A stretch of 57,985 nt of DNA from Desulfobulbus propionicus (GTDB lineage: Bacteria > Desulfobacterota > Desulfobulbia > Desulfobulbales > Desulfobulbaceae): positions 1 through 57,985 of the forward strand of contig PDTC01000021.1 in NCBI GenBank assembly GCA_002748735.1. The letters are read 5' to 3'. Positions 24,102 to 31,609 of this stretch are shown one piece after another (within the stretch, counting starts at the first letter, position 1; every line of letters begins with the position of its first letter). The notes under the pieces are model-generated. The model was not told where the DNA came from and searched no databases. It was given only the letters and a program-made list of their open reading frames with translations. The position numbers and the translations under genes are program-made.

Positions 24102-25157
24102 ATGGCCAAGAAGGAACAACTCATCGTCGGGGTTGATGTCGGCTCCCATGCAGTCAAGGTATGCCAGCTTCAACAGACCAACAAGGGATATCGGTTGCTT
24201 GCTGTCGGCAACGCTGCTATTCCCCCTGGTGCTGTGGAAGATGGCGTTCTTAATGAACCCGACGAAGTGGGCAAGGCGATCACCTCCCTGTTGAAAAACC
24301 TCAAGATCAAGGCCACCAAAGTTGGCATCTCCATCTCCGGATACTCAGTCATCGTCAAAAAGGTCAGGATTGAATCCATGGAAGACGAAGAATTGGCAGA
24401 GTATATAGAAGCAGAAGCCGAGCAGTACATTCCATTTGATATTGATGACGTCTATCTTGACTTTCAGCGTCTTCCTTCATCAGGTTCGGGTAAGCACAAT
24501 GATCGGATGGAAGTAATGCTGGTAGCAGCAAAAAAAGAAGTGGTCGATGACTACCTTGACATGCTGCGTGAACAGAAACTGCAGCCTGTCCTGGTGGACG
24601 TCGACGGCTTTGCTTTAGAAAATATCTGGCAAACTGTTTCACCCGCCGATTCCAATGTCGCCCTCGTTGACATCGGGGCCTCGAAGATGAGTATCAACAT
24701 CATTGCCGACGGCTCCTCGGTTCTCGCCCGTGACATTGTTGTGGGCAGCGATCAGTTGACTGATCAGCTCGCTGCCGTCCTCGATATAGAATTTGAAGAG
24801 GCGGAACAAGTCAAACTTGGACGAGTAACGCTTACCGACGAACAACAAGGAGAGGTGGAAGACGTTTTCATCCGCATCTGCACCCAATGGATCCTGGAAA
24901 TTAAAAAGGTCATTGATCTTTACTCCTCTAATTATCCTGACAAACCGTTGCAGGATCTGGTACTCAGCGGTGGCGGCTCCAAGGTAAAGGGACTGGTCGA
25001 GTTTATCGAAAAAGAGATCGGCATAAACGTCGTTTGTTTTAATCCCTTTGACTCCATGATGGTTAACGAACGCAAAATCGATCGGAACTATCTCAACTCT
25101 ATAGCTCCTGAACTGGCCATCGCTACAGGGCTGGCGATTCGGCCGGCTATCATCTGA
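24102..25157 (+). CDS. pilM: type IV pilus inner-membrane platform protein PilM
   Basis: PilM is an actin-like cytoplasmic protein that binds the N-terminus of PilN. The ATG at 24102 opens MAKKEQLIVGVDVGSHAVKV (351 aa); the frame is open 37 codons further but lacks similarity. GVDVGSHAVK is the ATPase phosphate-1 loop, VALVDIGASKMSIN the second, and LVLSGGGSKVKGL the adenosine motif. EAEQYIPFDIDDVYLDF is the standard PilM segment. It is the first gene of pilMNOP, 7 bases before pilN. Confidence 0.97.
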   Translation: MAKKEQLIVGVDVGSHAVKVCQLQQTNKGYRLLAVGNAAIPPGAVEDGVLNEPDEVGKAITSLLKNLKIKATKVGISISGYSVIVKKVRIESMEDEELAEYIEAEAEQYIPFDIDDVYLDFQRLPSSGSGKHNDRMEVMLVAAKKEVVDDYLDMLREQKLQPVLVDVDGFALENIWQTVSPADSNVALVDIGASKMSINIIADGSSVLARDIVVGSDQLTDQLAAVLDIEFEEAEQVKLGRVTLTDEQQGEVEDVFIRICTQWILEIKKVIDLYSSNYPDKPLQDLVLSGGGSKVKGLVEFIEKEIGINVVCFNPFDSMMVNERKIDRNYLNSIAPELAIATGLAIRPAII

Positions 25158-25164
25158 GAAGATC

Positions 25165-25749
25165 ATGATCAAGATCAATTTACTCCCTATCCGTGAGATC
25201 AAGCGGCGCCAGAAGGCAAAGCAACAAATTGCGACCTTCTGTTTCGGCATTCTCCTTTTTCTCGTCGCTCTCGGCCTGATTGCCCTTTACCTGATGGCGC
25301 AGACGGCCAGGCTGGAAACAAAGCTTGACGGCCTTAAGAAAGAGACGGCAAAGTACACAAAAATCCTTCAAGAAATCAAGGAATTGGAGGCAGACAAGGC
25401 CGTCTTGAAAAATCAGATCATGGTGATTGATCAGCTGAAAGAGTCCTCTTCGCTGACGGTACACCTTCTCGACGATGTGGCCCGGCGTACCCCCAAAGAA
25501 CGTATCTGGCTGAACTCGCTGAGCCAGAGCGGCCAGAATCTTACGATCAACGGCATGGCTCTTGACAACCGAACTGTGGCCAAATATATGGATGATCTTC
25601 GGACCTCTCCCTATATTCATTCCGTGAGTCTGGCCACAGCCTCAATGCAAACGTATGCTGGACGTAAATTGAAGTCCTTTTCGCTCTCCTGCGCTGTTGG
25701 CTCTCCGGTTGATGACGCAACATCGGATAAACAAGAGACAAAAAAGTAA
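25165..25749 (+). CDS. pilN: type IV pilus assembly protein PilN
   Basis: The N-terminus MIKINLLPIREIKRR is the PilM-binding INLLP motif. A membrane segment (about 24-43) and a periplasmic coiled-coil then ferredoxin-like region follow, for 194 residues as usual. IWLNSLSQSGQNLTINGMA is the conserved start of the fold. It lies between pilM (7 bases) and pilO (15 bases). Confidence 0.95.
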   Translation: MIKINLLPIREIKRRQKAKQQIATFCFGILLFLVALGLIALYLMAQTARLETKLDGLKKETAKYTKILQEIKELEADKAVLKNQIMVIDQLKESSSLTVHLLDDVARRTPKERIWLNSLSQSGQNLTINGMALDNRTVAKYMDDLRTSPYIHSVSLATASMQTYAGRKLKSFSLSCAVGSPVDDATSDKQETKK

Positions 25750-25764
25750 TCCCAGGTTCCGCAT

Positions 25765-26397
25765 ATGGCTTCCCCTAAATCACCCGGCAAGTTTGATGCC
25801 TTCATCGACAATCAGTACCGCACGTTTGATAAGCGCACAAAGCTGTTGATTGTTGTATTTTCTCTCATCATACCTGCGGTGCTGTGCTACTTCCTACTGT
25901 TCAAGCCGAGCCTTGACGAGATAGACACACTCAACAAACAGATAGTCACCGAACAGAAATCCCTGAAAAATGCGCGTAAAAGGGCCCGCAACAAGCCCAA
26001 ACATGAACAGGAACTTGAAGAGGTCAAAAAGCTCTTTGCACAAAAATCTGCGATGCTCCCCAAGCAGCAGGAAATCCCTGACCTGCTCAGGAACATCTCT
26101 GATCTGGGTAAAAGCGCTGGGCTCGACTTCCTCAAGTTTGCTCCCGCTCGTGAAATCCCCAGGGACTTTTATGCGGAGATCCCGGTTAATATTTCGATTA
26201 GTGGCCCGTACCACAACCTTGGATTCTTTCTCGATCAGGTCAGCAAACTGGAACGTATTGTTACTGTCAACAATATCAGGCTGGGCTCTCCCAGAGAAGA
26301 AGAGACGGAAATGCTGCTGAATTCGGATTGCCAGCTGCTCACCTACCGGTTCACAAATAAAAAACTGCCCTCGGAAGAAAAGAAGAAAAAAAAGTAA
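25765..26397 (+). CDS. pilO: type IV pilus assembly protein PilO
   Basis: PilO is the bitopic partner of PilN. In 210 residues there is one membrane segment (LLIVVFSLIIPAVLCYFLLF, about 28-47), a coiled coil rich in K/E, then a periplasmic domain with FYAEIPVNISISGPYHNLGF, typical of PilO. The C-terminus is a Lys-rich tail. The spacing to pilP is 7 bases. Confidence 0.95.
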   Translation: MASPKSPGKFDAFIDNQYRTFDKRTKLLIVVFSLIIPAVLCYFLLFKPSLDEIDTLNKQIVTEQKSLKNARKRARNKPKHEQELEEVKKLFAQKSAMLPKQQEIPDLLRNISDLGKSAGLDFLKFAPAREIPRDFYAEIPVNISISGPYHNLGFFLDQVSKLERIVTVNNIRLGSPREEETEMLLNSDCQLLTYRFTNKKLPSEEKKKKK

Positions 26398-26404
26398 CTC
26401 TGCC

Positions 26405-26953
26405 ATGAGATACGCTATGGTCCATCGCCATTTCATACGCCAAAATTTTCTACTGGGCGCCATGACCTTTGTCCTGTCAATCGCCTTCGCCTGCATCAGT
26501 CCGTCCATGGCGGCTCCACAGGCTGAAGAAGCGGCAATGCCGATCATGATTAAGGACGAGTCATCGCAAAAGCCTCCGGGCGAATACGAATATGCCCTTG
26601 ACGATCGCCCCGATCCCTTTAAGCCGTTTATTGCCCCCCAAGAGACCTCCCAGCCCGATCCCAATGAGATCGTTGAAGAGGAGAAAGAATTACGGGGAAT
26701 GCAGTTATTTGAACCCGGTCAGCTCAGACTGGTGGCAACCGTACTCAGGGAAGAGGGCGATAACTTTGCCATGGCCGAAGATGTTACCGGCCGGGGTTAC
26801 CCTCTTGAAGAGGGTATGCTCATTGGTCGCCGGGGCCAGGTAACGTCGATTACTCCGCAAGAGGTACTGATAACTGAAACGGCCAAAACCAGGGCCGGTA
26901 AAGAACTGATAACAACCGTTGTCATGCGATTGAAAAACGAGGGAGACGAGTAG
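26405..26953 (+). CDS. pilP: type IV pilus assembly protein PilP
   Basis: PilP links the PilN/O platform to the secretin. The 182 residues begin with a signal-like N-terminus, then an acidic linker with YALDDRPDPFKPF, which resembles the PilQ/PilN contact segment. The C-terminal beta domain has LRLVATVL and GYPLEEGMLIGRRGQVTSI. The signal has a Cys within LSIAFACIS, but it is not a clean lipobox, so lipid attachment is uncertain. It ends just before the AMIN protein (2 bases). Confidence 0.92.
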   Translation: MRYAMVHRHFIRQNFLLGAMTFVLSIAFACISPSMAAPQAEEAAMPIMIKDESSQKPPGEYEYALDDRPDPFKPFIAPQETSQPDPNEIVEEEKELRGMQLFEPGQLRLVATVLREEGDNFAMAEDVTGRGYPLEEGMLIGRRGQVTSITPQEVLITETAKTRAGKELITTVVMRLKNEGDE

Positions 26954-26955
26954 AC

Positions 26956-28812
26956 ATGCTTCATTTTCCTTTCCCCCCCCTACGACACCTTGCACCAGCG
27001 CTGAAAAAGACCGTAGGCGTGCTAACTTTCCTGTTCGGGCTCACCATGCTCGTTCCTGGTAATCTGCTTGCCAGCAACGTCATCAGCGGCGTCACGACAA
27101 AGAACTCTGACGAGGGCCTTATCGTCCGCATTAGAGGCTCAGAGGAACCGGCCTTCACCGTCTACGAACTGTTCAATCCGGCGCGCATCGTTGTTGACCT
27201 TGCTGGGGCCGAACTGCAACCCGGGACAACCCTGGCGCTTCCGGCAAGCACCGGGGTGACACTTACCAACAAGCAGCTTGAGGATTCCCCGTCATCGGTT
27301 CTCCGTCTGGAATTTGCGCTGGCAGGCTCCAGACCCTTTAAGGCCAAAAAGGAGAACACCGATATCCTGCTGACCATCAGTGATACCGCGCCGACCAGTC
27401 CAGGAGCCGTTGCTCGAGAAGGCGTCGTCATTGAGACTATTGATGTCGAGCACAGCGGCAAGCAGACAACGGTACACATTGCCGCCAACGCAGCAATTAC
27501 CGACTACAGCTATGATGTTCTCGATAAAAAAGGGAGCTCTCCTCCCCGGATGTATATTGATATCAACAATGTCACCAGCGACGGCCTCATCAAGGAAAAG
27601 CTGGTCGGTACACTGCTGGACAAGATCCGAGTTGCCAAGCGAGGAACAGGTCTCCGTATCGTCATGGACAGCAGCAAGGACACTCTCTTCCCCTTCCAGA
27701 TTGCTCCGGTGAAAAACGGCCTGGACGTTGTCATCGACGAAAAGGGTTCCACTGACCAGATCGGTAGCCTGATTGAAAAGAAAGCCGGAATTGCAAGCCA
27801 GCTGCCCACCGTCAATCCCCTGGAGAAGAGACTTTCACCTCAGGCGACTGAGCAGTCCCTGCAGGATGCTTTCAGTTTCTCCGGTTACACCAAGGAACGT
27901 ATCAGTGTCGATTTTTACAAAATTGATCTCCACAATGTCTTTCGCCTAATTGGTAAGGTGAGTGGCATCAACATCATCGTTGATGAGGGGGTTGCCGGCA
28001 CGCTAACCCTCGCCCTTGACGATGTGCCGTGGGATTTCGCCCTTGATGTCATCCTCAACCTGAAAAACCTGCAAAAGGAAGAACGGTTCAACACCCTTGT
28101 TATTCTTCCCAAGGAAAAAGCCTTTGCCTGGTCCAACAAAGCCGACAACAACCTCAGTTTTGAGCCTGATATTGCCGTCACCGAGCAGGAGTCCCTGCTC
28201 ATTAAACAGCAGCAAAGCCTTTCTCCGGAAGTTTTTGCTGCCAAGGAAAAAATCGCTCAGGCACGGACCTTTGAAGAGCGCGAAGATTTCGAAACAGCGA
28301 TCCGCCTGTATGAACAGGCCCTTGAAGGCTGGACCGACAATGCCAAGCTGGCCAACCGCATTTCATCACTGTACCTGGTACAACTTCGCCAGAACGCCAA
28401 GGCTGTCTTTTACGCGAAAAAGGCCCTTGCCCTTGACAAGGACCTGAGTTCCGCAGCCCTGAACGCAGCTATTGGCTTGGCCAGCATGCAGGAGTACCAG
28501 GAAGCACAGCAGTATTTTGACCAGAGCATCAGTGGAGATAAACCCAGTAAAGAAGCACTGTTCAGCTATGCGGTGTTCAGTGAAGACCGCAAAGCCTACG
28601 ACAATGCCCTCAAGCTGCTCCAACAGCATGATGAACTGTATGGGGAAACCCTCAATTCCATGATCGCTGAAGCACGCCTCCTGGATAAAAAGGGCAGCAC
28701 AGACGCGGCCACAAAAAAATACAAGGCTATTCTGCTCTCAGGGCTCCGGGTTCCACCGGACCTTATGAAGTATATCAAGGGACGAATTGCCTTCGAAGAA
28801 AATATGAACTAA
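26956..28812 (+). CDS. AMIN-STN-TPR periplasmic protein, PilQ N-terminal module on a separate gene
   Basis: A signal peptide is followed by two AMIN-like domains (about 42-145 and 155-260), a secretin-type N domain (about 315-390, with FYKIDLHNVFRLIGKVSGIN and DDVPWDFALDVIL), and a TPR region (about 435-590). The first three are exactly what precede the pore domain in ordinary PilQ. Here the protein ends (618 aa) without any secretin core, and the pore is the next gene. The gene begins 2 bases after pilP and ends 31 bases before the secretin. The AMIN domains likely bind peptidoglycan; the TPR part may organise the complex, as pilotin/TPR proteins do elsewhere. The codons 6-8 include an 8-C run. 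The role is inferred, the domain order is read from the sequence. Confidence 0.85.
   Translation: MLHFPFPPLRHLAPALKKTVGVLTFLFGLTMLVPGNLLASNVISGVTTKNSDEGLIVRIRGSEEPAFTVYELFNPARIVVDLAGAELQPGTTLALPASTGVTLTNKQLEDSPSSVLRLEFALAGSRPFKAKKENTDILLTISDTAPTSPGAVAREGVVIETIDVEHSGKQTTVHIAANAAITDYSYDVLDKKGSSPPRMYIDINNVTSDGLIKEKLVGTLLDKIRVAKRGTGLRIVMDSSKDTLFPFQIAPVKNGLDVVIDEKGSTDQIGSLIEKKAGIASQLPTVNPLEKRLSPQATEQSLQDAFSFSGYTKERISVDFYKIDLHNVFRLIGKVSGINIIVDEGVAGTLTLALDDVPWDFALDVILNLKNLQKEERFNTLVILPKEKAFAWSNKADNNLSFEPDIAVTEQESLLIKQQQSLSPEVFAAKEKIAQARTFEEREDFETAIRLYEQALEGWTDNAKLANRISSLYLVQLRQNAKAVFYAKKALALDKDLSSAALNAAIGLASMQEYQEAQQYFDQSISGDKPSKEALFSYAVFSEDRKAYDNALKLLQQHDELYGETLNSMIAEARLLDKKGSTDAATKKYKAILLSGLRVPPDLMKYIKGRIAFEENMN
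26973..26980 (+). repeat. poly-C run of 8 in the start of the AMIN gene
   Basis: Eight C residues lie at codons 6-9 of the AMIN-STN-TPR gene, before the signal-peptide core. A change in length would shift the frame of the pilus protein. It is shorter than classical phase-variable tracts, so it may have no role. Confidence 0.5.
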
Positions 28813-28843
28813 CCAGCTTATGAGACAACAGAGGAACTTTACC

Positions 28844-30547
28844 ATGTATTGCTCAAAAAGATATCTCGCACTCTGCCTTTGTTTTCTCCTGGCTTCCTGC
28901 GTAAACTCTACTCAGCAAGCAGAAGATCCCGCTCAGGAGACGCCTCAGGAAGTCAACATGCCTGCAAAGGCGCCTGAAGCGGAACAACAACTTCCGGCAC
29001 GATTTCAGCATCCGGTCTTCATGACGGACAGCGAGGTAGCCGATGAAACGATCGACACAACAGATGAGTTCGAGCTCAAGGTAGGCGCAACAATCCGCTC
29101 TACCGGTGGCCCGCAACCCCTGTGGGACATCATGAAGCGGCTGGCCAACTTGAAAAACATGACGGTTTCCTGGTCCAGTGATGTCGATATCAATGCCCTC
29201 GTTGACGTTGATATCAATGCCGAAGATAACTTCTTTGACGCCATTGACAACCTGTTGCGCCAGGTCGACTACTTTCACGAGGTAGAAGACAAGACCATTG
29301 TTGTTCGATACAAGGACACAAAAACATACCAGATCGCCATTCCCCAGATGGCTGGCAATTATGCGACAACCGTTGGCGGTAATTTCCTCACGGACAGTGA
29401 GGCGAACAACGGTACCGAAGGTACGGTCAAAATCACCAGCAATGAAAATAAATTCGACATCTGGGAAAACATCAAACGCAACATGGACACCATTATTGAG
29501 GTATGGAGTGTCCGTCGTGAAGTTAAAACCGTCAAAAATGACGAGGCAGAGGAGAGCTCGGACGAAGCCCAAGCAGATGGCGGAGAAGGAGCAACTGAAG
29601 CTGCCCCTTCAAGTGTAGGGGTAGACCTGAAGGCAACCGCCTATTACACCATTGACGAGAGCGTCGGCCTGCTGTCAGTCACCGCCCCGCGCCCCGTCCT
29701 CGACAAGGTAGATCTGTACATTAACAACCTCAAGAAAGAACTGTACCGACAAGTCTCCATTGAGGCAAAAATTATTGAAGTCTATCTCCAGGATAACTCC
29801 AAAATTGGCTTGGACTGGTCAGCGATCCTCAAAGACTTCAGTATTTCCGGCACCACGTTTTTTGGCACAGCAGGTGCGGGTGATAACGAACAGTTTAGGG
29901 GGCAGGTCTATCCCTGGATACCGCCAGCAGGTGATGAAGACTCTATTACAACCTTTGTCAGCAAGATTACCCTTAACTCGGTCAATTTCAACGTCCTGCT
30001 AAACGCCCTGAATGAGCAGGGTGACGCCAATGTCCTCTCCAACCCCAAGCTGACAGTGCTCAACGGTCAGCCGGCGCTTATCAGTGTTGGCAGGGATATC
30101 GCCTACATCAAAACAGTCTCTAGAAACATCGACAATGCTGGCAGCCAAAACGAAACTATCACGTACACTGCAGAAGTGGACAACGTCGTCGAGGGTGTTG
30201 CCCTTGGAGTTATGCCTTCTATCGTCAATGACAGCAAAGTTGTCCTCCACCTGACCCCCATCACCACCGACTTACTTGACGATCCCATTGAATACCGCTC
30301 GTTCGGCGATCAGGGACTCGAAGTTGGCCTGCCCAGAATTGGTGTCAGAGAGATGTCGACCATGGTGGAAGTCGAAAATGGTGAGATGCTCGTCATTGGT
30401 GGCCTCATTGACAAGACCGAATCAACAAATGGCGCCTTCGCACCAGTTGTTGGCGATATCCCCATTATCAAATATCTGTTTGGTTACGAAGAAAAAATCA
30501 TGCAAAAAAGGGAACTCGTCATTCTGCTTACCCCGACGATACTCTAG
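28844..30547 (+). CDS. lipoprotein secretin of MshL/BfpB type (PilQ analogue)
   Basis: The ATG at 28844 with GAGGAAC before it opens a lipoprotein signal (CFLLASC, lipobox near residue 19), giving 567 residues; an ATG at 28820 has no ribosome-binding site. N-terminal secretin domains occupy about 75-160 (RSTGGPQPLWDIMKRLANLK, VDVDINAEDNF). The secretin core spans about 300-567, with YRQVSIEAKIIEVYLQDNS, VLSNPKLTVLNGQPALISVG, MLVIGGLIDK, and the C-terminal VPIIKYLFGYEE-like ELVILLTPTIL. Being a lipoprotein and lacking AMIN domains, it resembles MshL and BfpB rather than classical PilQ. It should form the outer-membrane pore for the pilus. Confidence 0.88.
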   Translation: MYCSKRYLALCLCFLLASCVNSTQQAEDPAQETPQEVNMPAKAPEAEQQLPARFQHPVFMTDSEVADETIDTTDEFELKVGATIRSTGGPQPLWDIMKRLANLKNMTVSWSSDVDINALVDVDINAEDNFFDAIDNLLRQVDYFHEVEDKTIVVRYKDTKTYQIAIPQMAGNYATTVGGNFLTDSEANNGTEGTVKITSNENKFDIWENIKRNMDTIIEVWSVRREVKTVKNDEAEESSDEAQADGGEGATEAAPSSVGVDLKATAYYTIDESVGLLSVTAPRPVLDKVDLYINNLKKELYRQVSIEAKIIEVYLQDNSKIGLDWSAILKDFSISGTTFFGTAGAGDNEQFRGQVYPWIPPAGDEDSITTFVSKITLNSVNFNVLLNALNEQGDANVLSNPKLTVLNGQPALISVGRDIAYIKTVSRNIDNAGSQNETITYTAEVDNVVEGVALGVMPSIVNDSKVVLHLTPITTDLLDDPIEYRSFGDQGLEVGLPRIGVREMSTMVEVENGEMLVIGGLIDKTESTNGAFAPVVGDIPIIKYLFGYEEKIMQKRELVILLTPTIL

Positions 30548-30583
30548 GAGAACTCAACCGTTATGTGGAACAGGAGAAATAAC

Positions 30584-31609
30584 ATGAAGATCGGCCGCTA
30601 TCTGCTTATCGGGTTTATGGCACTGCTTCTTGGCGGTTGTGGGACCACGATACAACAGTCGTTGAAAGTGTCACCAGCCGCTAAATCGAATGTTGGTGCT
30701 GAACGCAGAGTCGTTATTCTGCCCTTTGCTGACTACTCGTATGGCGATGATCTTGAAAGCGCATATCGCCGCAATCTTTTCGTCAACGAGAATCTCACAG
30801 ACCAACTCGTTTCGCACAGCTTCAACCTGCCGGTACAGGAGGATGTCTTCCTCTACCTAGTTGATCAGAATATTATCAACGTCGTCGCCTACGAAGAAAG
30901 CAAAACCAGCAGCCTCGAAAACGAGCTGAAAGGGGGCGAGTGGGGGCCACAGATGCAACGTCATCTGCAAAAATATATCGAGATGACCAATCAACGTGGC
31001 GTCAGTAATATGCCTGTGCTGGAAAGCCCTGGTACCCATGGCCTAACCTCCCAGGAAGTGGTCAAACTTGGGCGGCACTTCTCTGCGGACTACATCCTCA
31101 GGGGACGAATCATCCAGTACAAGGATCGTCAGGATCCTTCATGGGCACCCTGGAAACGCGGGGTCCTCGGCTTCATGACCGGGGTAACCAACAAGATTGC
31201 CTTTGGCCAGGCGGCCGCAGACAAATATGACAATCTCGGTTATCTTGTTGCAGGCGGAACCTACGGCGGACTCATAGGCGACGGGGCAAACTGGCCTTAC
31301 ACCCATGAGGCCGATCAGACTATCTTTGGTGTCTCAGGAGGAACCATTGGTAATCAGGTGGTCTGGGGCGCCATTGGCGCTGGCCTTGGCCATATGTCCA
31401 GTCAGTCAGGAAGAATTCCCCAGGCAGTGGTTCAACTGAGGGTCTGGATGCAGGATGCCTATAACGGCGATGTGGTCTGGACCAACCGAGTTGACGTAAA
31501 GGTTTCACCTGAATCGGTGCTCGCTGATTACCAGTACGATGCCCTCTTCGAGACAGCTACCGAGAAAGCCATTGCTACCCTGATCGAAAATTTCGTAACA
31601 ACCCTGTAA
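30584..31609 (+). CDS. CsgG/curli-export-like glycine-rich lipoprotein at the end of the pil operon
   Basis: The ATG at 30584 with AGGAG before it opens a lipoprotein signal (LLLGGCG), giving 341 residues. RRVVILPFADYSYG resembles the N-terminal strand of CsgG-like and LPP20/TolB-like outer-membrane factors. The ILRGRIIQYKDR and VQLRVWMQDAYNGDVVWTNR segments fit the same fold, and the C-terminus ATEKAIATLIENFV is typical. A Gly-rich central part (about 215-275, with GYLVAGGTYGGLIGDG) could be a membrane-inserting loop. It lies 36 bases after the secretin and before the terminator, so it is in the pil operon. The CsgG relation is inferred from pattern and is less sure than the lipoprotein call. 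Confidence 0.65.
   Translation: MKIGRYLLIGFMALLLGGCGTTIQQSLKVSPAAKSNVGAERRVVILPFADYSYGDDLESAYRRNLFVNENLTDQLVSHSFNLPVQEDVFLYLVDQNIINVVAYEESKTSSLENELKGGEWGPQMQRHLQKYIEMTNQRGVSNMPVLESPGTHGLTSQEVVKLGRHFSADYILRGRIIQYKDRQDPSWAPWKRGVLGFMTGVTNKIAFGQAAADKYDNLGYLVAGGTYGGLIGDGANWPYTHEADQTIFGVSGGTIGNQVVWGAIGAGLGHMSSQSGRIPQAVVQLRVWMQDAYNGDVVWTNRVDVKVSPESVLADYQYDALFETATEKAIATLIENFVTTL

Follow-up and report, generated by a model that had tools for sequence, protein, structure and literature searches.

The window analysed here is a 57,985-nucleotide stretch from Desulfobulbus propionicus (assembly GCA_002748735.1, contig PDTC01000021.1, positions 1 to 57,985, forward strand); the element of interest is a pilus operon at 24102..31609, which is probably a variant type IVa operon in which an MshL-type pore has taken over from that of PilQ and an adaptor derived from PilQ couples it to PilP. 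The operon begins with pilMNOP (24102-26953), followed by an AMIN-AMIN-STN-TPR protein without a pore (the N-protein) and by a separate lipoprotein secretin; this layout, described in an earlier note made from the letters alone, was confirmed by Pfam, a lipobox and a structure model, as was the division of modules, AMIN being found in the N-protein only and the Secretin core in the other protein. What the earlier note called a PilQ divided over two genes had to be redrawn: NCBIfam scores, a split-pore profile and the pore tree indicate that the PilQ core has been lost and its position taken by a secretin from a different family. The arrangement is real and conserved, and is better described as pore replacement plus an adaptor derived from PilQ than as a divided PilQ. 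All parts belong to known families; judged from sequence, their combination should surprise specialists, and the binding steps proposed below are unproven.

The 618-residue N-protein was scanned with Pfam, which gave AMIN (8e-9), STN (2e-6) and TPR_16 (5e-8), bearing out the TPR of the earlier note, and no Secretin (PF00263) match at E ≤ 0.1. AMIN gave a single Pfam stretch, and the second AMIN, which had no separate Pfam match, was assigned from model strands at 159-261 (block pLDDT, predicted local distance difference test, 47-81) together with an alignment of residues 51-387 to residues 213-553 of chain 3jc8_Qa, which we take to be the M. xanthus PilQ chain. The model, built from two rows and with a mean pLDDT of 50, served for AMIN1/AMIN2 and one fold search only; it contains two beta-sandwiches, at 41-141 and 159-261, and is mostly of low confidence in the remainder. 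By sequence comparison with the PDB, the best seven solved-structure matches were PilQs, residues 309-395 aligned with 4ar0 (presumably the Neisseria N0 domain), and the TPR part matched designed TPRs and, weakly, PilF (2ho1, 2e-4). Foldseek returned 3jc8_Qa first (E 1e-8) and then 9hmf_K of the Campylobacter flagellar scaffold (E 5e-4), a chain that we take to be PflA. The N0 aligned with the PilQ model TIGR02515 (Table 1), and by eye the protein has a signal-peptide-like start without a lipobox. On its sequence, the N-protein is best read as the periplasmic front of PilQ (AMIN-AMIN-N0) with a TPR solenoid in place of N1 and the pore.

The secretin (575 or 567 amino acids, depending on the start; Pfam Secretin 4e-35) gave no Pfam AMIN match, and none was listed at E ≤ 0.01 among the 54 split secretins scanned. 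It passed the MshL model TIGR02519 (272.8 bits vs a cut-off of 250.2) and failed those for PilQ (TIGR02515, 116.9 vs 284.35), GspD (151.4 vs 351.35) and the type IVB secretin PilN/BfpB (TIGR02520, 92.5 vs 287.65), so that the supposed likeness to MshL/BfpB held for MshL and failed for BfpB. The 'IVb-like secretin' of the proposed hybrid thus does not fit; according to Denise et al. 2019, MSH itself derived from the type IVa pilus branch (PMC6668835; this and the other papers cited are drawn on for their accessible parts). The pore is also not merely the missing half of PilQ, because it includes its own stretch with a weak likeness to N0 (TcpQ 0.007; TcpQ at E ≤ 0.01 in 17/54 rows). By Pfam, PilM, PilN, PilO and PilP stand in one operon, and the platform is type IVa, as had been proposed; the operon is termed a variant because no ordinary single-chain PilQ was found in the window's genome (86% complete; no PilQ-model match at E ≤ 1e-60). 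Secretin matches in that genome were two, the window secretin and GspD of the type II system. Since this GspD (760 aa, L211:6632-8911, genome G000, contig 16) matches TPR families at about aa 663-730, past the pore, both secretin systems of the genome involve a fused TPR. No MshE, MshG or MshM was seen beside the window secretin among the genes scanned (pilMNOP, N-protein and lipoprotein). At other MshL loci, MshEN-T2SSE, T2SSF and AAA_22 genes adjoin the MshL of the one examined closely (L161), and at L154 and L155 the neighbouring genes are weakly PilM/PilN/PilO-like.

Of the 146 genomes sampled from the same order, 138 gave matches to the N-protein, five of them weak (best E above 1e-17); as counted from the table of matches, the best row entered the TPR, reaching at least residue 545, in 133 of the 146. 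Cable bacteria probably belong to the same order. The phylum sample gave matches in 242 of 297 genomes, mostly to N0 with or without AMIN, and a match running into the TPR region in at least 25 of the 297, at least 11 within the order and at least 14 outside it. One relative alone bears a name, an uncultured Desulfobulbaceae contig (51% identical), which makes Desulfobulbales the probable order. The split loci fetched were 40 of the order and 13 of the 14 outside it, and the neighbourhood survey that the earlier note had called for placed both genes beside pil genes in 53/53: N-protein and a separate secretin open reading frame (ORF) lie on the same strand, with pilO and pilP, at most 162 bases apart (exception L075, 476). 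A contig end cuts L075 before pilM and L062 before pilM and pilN. The secretin ORF at L088:7634-8965 (444 aa) matches no more than the beginning of the pore profile and may be a broken gene or an assembly error. The comparators were 30 loci from other families within the phylum (27 from matches stopping before the TPR, three from PilO matches in family f63), in each of which one ORF downstream of pilP holds the N0 part and the secretin core; in L197 about 1.7 kb lie between pilP and the single-chain pilQ. The second locus of G323 (L198) was kept as 'other' in the pore tree and is not among the 30.

Across the 54 split N-proteins, STN was found in 54, TPR_14 in 52 and AMIN in 41 (E ≤ 0.01); N0 plus TPR, the proposed bridge, is therefore the constant part, and AMIN seems optional. 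Fifteen columns are invariant in these rows, nine of them at residues 320-372, in N0. The N-proteins of L098-L105 and L108 have 355-435 aa, start shortly before N0 and apparently lack AMIN. The first profiles contained full-length PilQs, which led to spurious cross-matches, and were replaced by profiles of split loci only (L003 is in the N-protein profile and outside the 54 split rows). The split-only N-protein profile matched 30/30 single-chain PilQs, always inside AMIN-N0 and never past position 377 of 560. Weak matches to the N0 part by the MshL secretins of L149, L156 and L164, consistent with each having its own N0-like stretch, were seen with the first profile and disappeared with the second.

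The pores were compared in the same way. At E ≤ 2e-74, which is about the MshL cut-off, 31/54 split pores matched MshL and 0/54 matched PilQ; all 30 comparator secretins matched the PilQ model at E ≤ 2e-84, about the cut-off of that model. The split-pore profile scored 175-365 bits against 20 MshL-family secretins of other loci (18 of which exceed the MshL cut-off) and 62-113 bits against the 30 PilQs. The lipobox (LASC in the window; 49/54 split secretins by a relaxed pattern, 35/54 by a strict one) does not separate the kinds, being present also in 16/30 PilQs. An over-cut-off PilQ match was found in 29 of the 146 order genomes; eight such loci (L216-L223) were fetched, seven of them over the cut-off (G035 below it), with compact secretins in ORFs of 466-593 aa. 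At most of the eight, weak PilM/PilN/PilO-like matches adjoin, and the two scanned with Pfam have MshEN-T2SSE and AAA_22 genes; these pilus-like clusters are other than the pilMNOP/N-protein operon. If they are MSHA-like, secretin types would have been swapped in both directions.

Trees of pore core (105 rows, 295 columns, quick search), N0 (84 rows, 100 columns, bootstrap not settled) and PilMNOP (84 rows, 897 columns, quick) were calculated. In the pore tree, the 54 split pores form one clade (Shimodaira-Hasegawa-like approximate likelihood ratio test 100) beside other MshL pores and the 30 PilQs stand apart (100); uniting split and PilQ pores against MshL costs 54.6 log units (P value of the approximately unbiased test, p-AU, 0.03). 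The N0 tree has 54/54 split rows on one side and 30/30 PilQs on the other (100/99). In the PilMNOP tree the split loci L106 and L109, of family f63, group with the single-PilQ loci L195-L197 of f63 (100) and not with other split loci; L107 (family f105), on a long branch, is placed with little certainty. One PilMNOP clade of all split rows was rejected (p-AU 6e-45, 57 of the 84 rows; left out were L184, L186, L112, L169, L062 and 22 thinned rows), and without L106 and L109 the remaining 29 split rows make up one side of a branch with support 94, not starred. N0 and pore of L106 and L109 lie with the other split loci, and f63 as one pore clade was rejected (p-AU 4e-4). Since in these f63 loci the platform goes with single-PilQ kin, and N0 and pore with the split loci, adaptor and pore share a history unlike that of the platform, and the pair seems to move as a cassette. 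On balance, we lean towards a wider reading: an order-wide (probably Desulfobulbales) type IVa pilus that passes through an MshL-type pore by means of a detachable N0-TPR adaptor, the pair being a transferable cassette that replaced pilQ on other pilMNOP platforms, with N0 plus TPR as minimal bridge and AMIN as an option.

Two candidate sources of the TPR were considered. Arrival with the MshL pore, as an MshN-like protein, would agree with the best outside TPR matches (77.6, 65.6 and 59.5 bits), all at loci that encode other MshL secretins; profile scores cannot discriminate, because a TPR protein elsewhere in the window's own genome (L210) scores 62.8 against the same profile. The second possibility, a TPR gene that three f63 genomes have close to pilQ, is likewise not separable by profile score; as a candidate source, such a separate gene stands just after single-chain pilQ at L195:1017-1784, L196:11753-12499 and L197:12781-13542. 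A plasmid search with the N-protein gave eight records with short matches only (10-17% of the query) around N0 and no whole-protein relative. On an E. coli resistance plasmid (L215:6669-8186) the short N0 match overlaps a protein that is annotated as having an AMIN domain and lies among mobile elements; this is not a relative of the split pair.

Every binding step, and the passage of a pilus through the MshL-type pore, is an inference. The N0 of the N-protein would dock on PilP as the N0 of PilQ does; in Neisseria, the PilP C-domain binds PilQ N0, not N1 (PMC3441751). AMIN would bind the cell wall. The TPR may grip or stabilise a foreign pore that lacks a PilQ-type N0, the choice between the pore and another partner being a guess. 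Pores of the MshL kind seem to come without such an N0, because none of the N-protein-profile matches listed in the 20 other-MshL loci covers the N0 part (the match in L165 overlaps the N0 end); the PilMNOP platform would need a surface, which the N-protein would supply. A tail hold of the TadD style is hardly applicable, because 48/53 split pores have at most three residues after the core; the window secretin ends at its core.

Several points weigh against the replaced-pore explanation. The contacts of the N-protein with PilP and with the pore are predictions; residues 264-533, which comprise N0 and much of the TPR, were modelled at pLDDT <50, and the model of the pore alone (pLDDT 31) was not used. 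The weak N0-like stretch of the pore might dock alone, and since the pore tail bound by the TadD TPR in RcpA is missing here, the TPR-pore contact must be of another kind or absent. Among the split pores, 23/54 fall below the MshL cut-off. The exclusion of MshL pores from a clade of split and PilQ pores is moderately supported (p-AU 0.03), the pore topology tests were chosen after the tree was seen, and the quick pore and PilMNOP trees contain long branches (L106 in the pore tree, L107 and L109 in the PilMNOP tree).

The best-surviving alternative, though an unlikely one, is that the N-protein serves mainly as a pilotin-like assembly factor through its TPR, N0 being a leftover and the pore docking on PilP by its own weak N0-like stretch. 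TPR pilotins such as PilF and TadD are known (PMC10499894), and the TPR does resemble PilW/PilF, in the PilF match given above and in TIGR02521 (28.5 bits, E 1e-6, cut-off of 154 not reached); against this stand the conservation of N0, with its nine of the 15 invariant columns and STN in every row, and the lipidation pattern. A lipobox, as expected of a lipidated TPR pilotin, occurs in only 3/54 N-proteins (absent in 51/54), and the pore hardly needs a lipoprotein pilot because it has a lipobox itself in 49/54. Genuine splitting of an ancestral PilQ, with both parts stemming from one gene and the pore having drifted towards MshL, is quite improbable: the pair lies downstream of pilP like single-chain PilQ in 30/30 comparators, the N0 half is that of PilQ and the sub-cut-off pores would suit drift, but the window pore passes MshL and fails PilQ, no split pore matches PilQ at the threshold given, and the tree places the split pores with those of the MshL family from other loci. 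Exaptation as an envelope scaffold or secretion conduit without a pilus, like the PilMNOPQF parts in the Campylobacterota flagellar motor, has about as little to recommend it, if not slightly less. PflA of that motor combines AMIN and TPR (PMC11870540) and its scaffold provided the second-best fold match; however, that match rests on a low-confidence model, the secretin is kept, PilB and PilT are present, and 0/7 operon proteins match a flagellar family over cut-off. That a normal pilQ was broken in sequencing or assembly is refuted by two separate ORFs in 53/53 other loci and a pore of another family, the single-gene relatives (30, in other families) having a PilQ-type core; no support for it was found.

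Compared with PilQ of type IVa pili, the N-protein shares AMIN, N0 and the place downstream of pilP, but has a TPR instead of the secretin core, the pore being on a separate protein of another family. The pore resembles MshL, the MSHA secretin, in passing TIGR02519 and in its lipobox, but its neighbours are pilMNOP and a partner that carries a PilQ-type N0, and the seven genes scanned include neither an ATPase nor a platform gene. In TadD/RcpA and MshN/MshL, a TPR protein is likewise paired with a secretin (PMC10499894; PMC6668835), MshN being a TadD homologue (PMC6668835) and the TadD TPR binding the tail of RcpA (PMC10499894); here, in contrast, the TPR is fused behind AMIN-N0, a lipobox is lacking and the pore has hardly any tail. 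Legionella DotD also carries an N0 fold detached from the pore, on a separate lipoprotein (PMC2951367), but belongs to a type IVB secretion system and no pilus; AMIN and TPR go unmentioned in the accessible part of that paper, and the likeness is one of fold only. Campylobacter PflA has PilQ-like AMIN and TPR on one chain away from the secretin, but is part of a flagellar scaffold, and the accessible part of the paper reports no N0 for it (PMC11870540). From the Tad, type II secretion and type IVa pilus clades of the secretin tree, Denise et al. 2019 concluded that there was little secretin transfer between systems, co-option of secretins being nonetheless very common, for example in type III secretion and filamentous phages (PMC6668835). 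The present case looks like an order-wide secretin exchange inside the pilus family; it offers a natural cut through PilQ that allows docking (AMIN-N0) to be investigated separately from the pore, and the adaptor it predicts for PilP can be tested. Cable bacteria are said to encode a type IVa system, with PilA highly expressed and its role unclear (PMC10580974). No description of the split N-protein/MshL-pore arrangement was found in the literature searched, subscription papers being mostly outside its reach.

The seven genes from pilM to the lipoprotein gene lie on the + strand with small intergenic gaps (Table 1). For the secretin, the start at 28844 (567 aa) was preferred over 28820 (575 aa), as GAGGAA lies just 5' of it and the signal peptide ends in LASC; for the lipoprotein gene, an internal ATG at 30584 suits the lipobox.

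Table 1. Positions of the operon genes and of the domains of the N-protein and the secretin in the window.
Feature	Position	Strand	Evidence
pilM	24102..25157	+	PilM_2 1.2e-73; TIGR01175 270.8 bits vs cut-off 133
pilN	25165..25749	+	PF05137 1.9e-21
pilO	25765..26397	+	PF04350 1.3e-40
pilP	26405..26953	+	PF04351 6.3e-7, 29.9 bits vs cut-off 25.6
N-protein (probable PilQ-derived adaptor), 618 aa	26956..28812	+	signal peptide, AMIN1, AMIN2, N0/STN, TPR
AMIN1, aa 41-141 of N-protein	27076..27378	+	PF11741 8e-9 at aa 49-128; model strands 41-141, block pLDDT 67-85
AMIN2-like sandwich, aa 159-261 of N-protein	27430..27738	+	structure model and alignment to PilQ chain
PilQ-type N0 (STN), aa 314-395 of N-protein	27895..28140	+	TIGR02515 positions 2-82; 4ar0 3e-16
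TPR region, aa 422-617 of N-protein	28219..28806	+	TPR_16, TPR_7
MshL-type lipoprotein secretin, 567 aa	28844..30547	+	TIGR02519; lipobox LASC; upstream GAGGAA
N0-like stretch of secretin, weak	29117..29269	+	PF10671 TcpQ 0.007 at aa 92-142
Secretin core	30005..30544	+	PF00263 3.4e-35
Lipoprotein, 348 aa, possibly CsgG/LpoB-like fold	30563..31609	+	lipobox LGGC

The last gene of the operon, taken for a CsgG-like lipoprotein in the earlier note, is a lipoprotein by its lipobox; the likeness to CsgG is weak, with no CsgG (PF03783) match at E ≤ 0.1, none over cut-off, and LpoB at 0.044. Among its relatives (20 of 35 found), LpoB was matched by 14/20 and CsgG by 5/20 rows at E ≤ 0.1, and the fold may, on these matches, be LpoB/CsgG-like. 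The suggestion that this protein belongs to the split did not hold: the protein is accessory to the pilus operon, being present, within the stretches fetched, in 31/54 split loci and also after single-chain pilQ in 4/30 comparators, all of family f48 (L110, L113, L169 and L172). In G273 (L106:10121-11308) the lipoprotein gene stands between pilP and the N-protein gene, not after the secretin. Elsewhere in the window's genome, PilB (TIGR02538, 756.8 bits over 675.65) and PilT (TIGR01420, 460.8 bits over 319.1) were identified. The extension motor PilB (740 aa, L212:4299-6518, G000 contig 16) may carry a cyclic-nucleotide-binding-like domain behind its ATPase, where aa 600-726 match the CRP model at 2.8e-11, below its cut-off.

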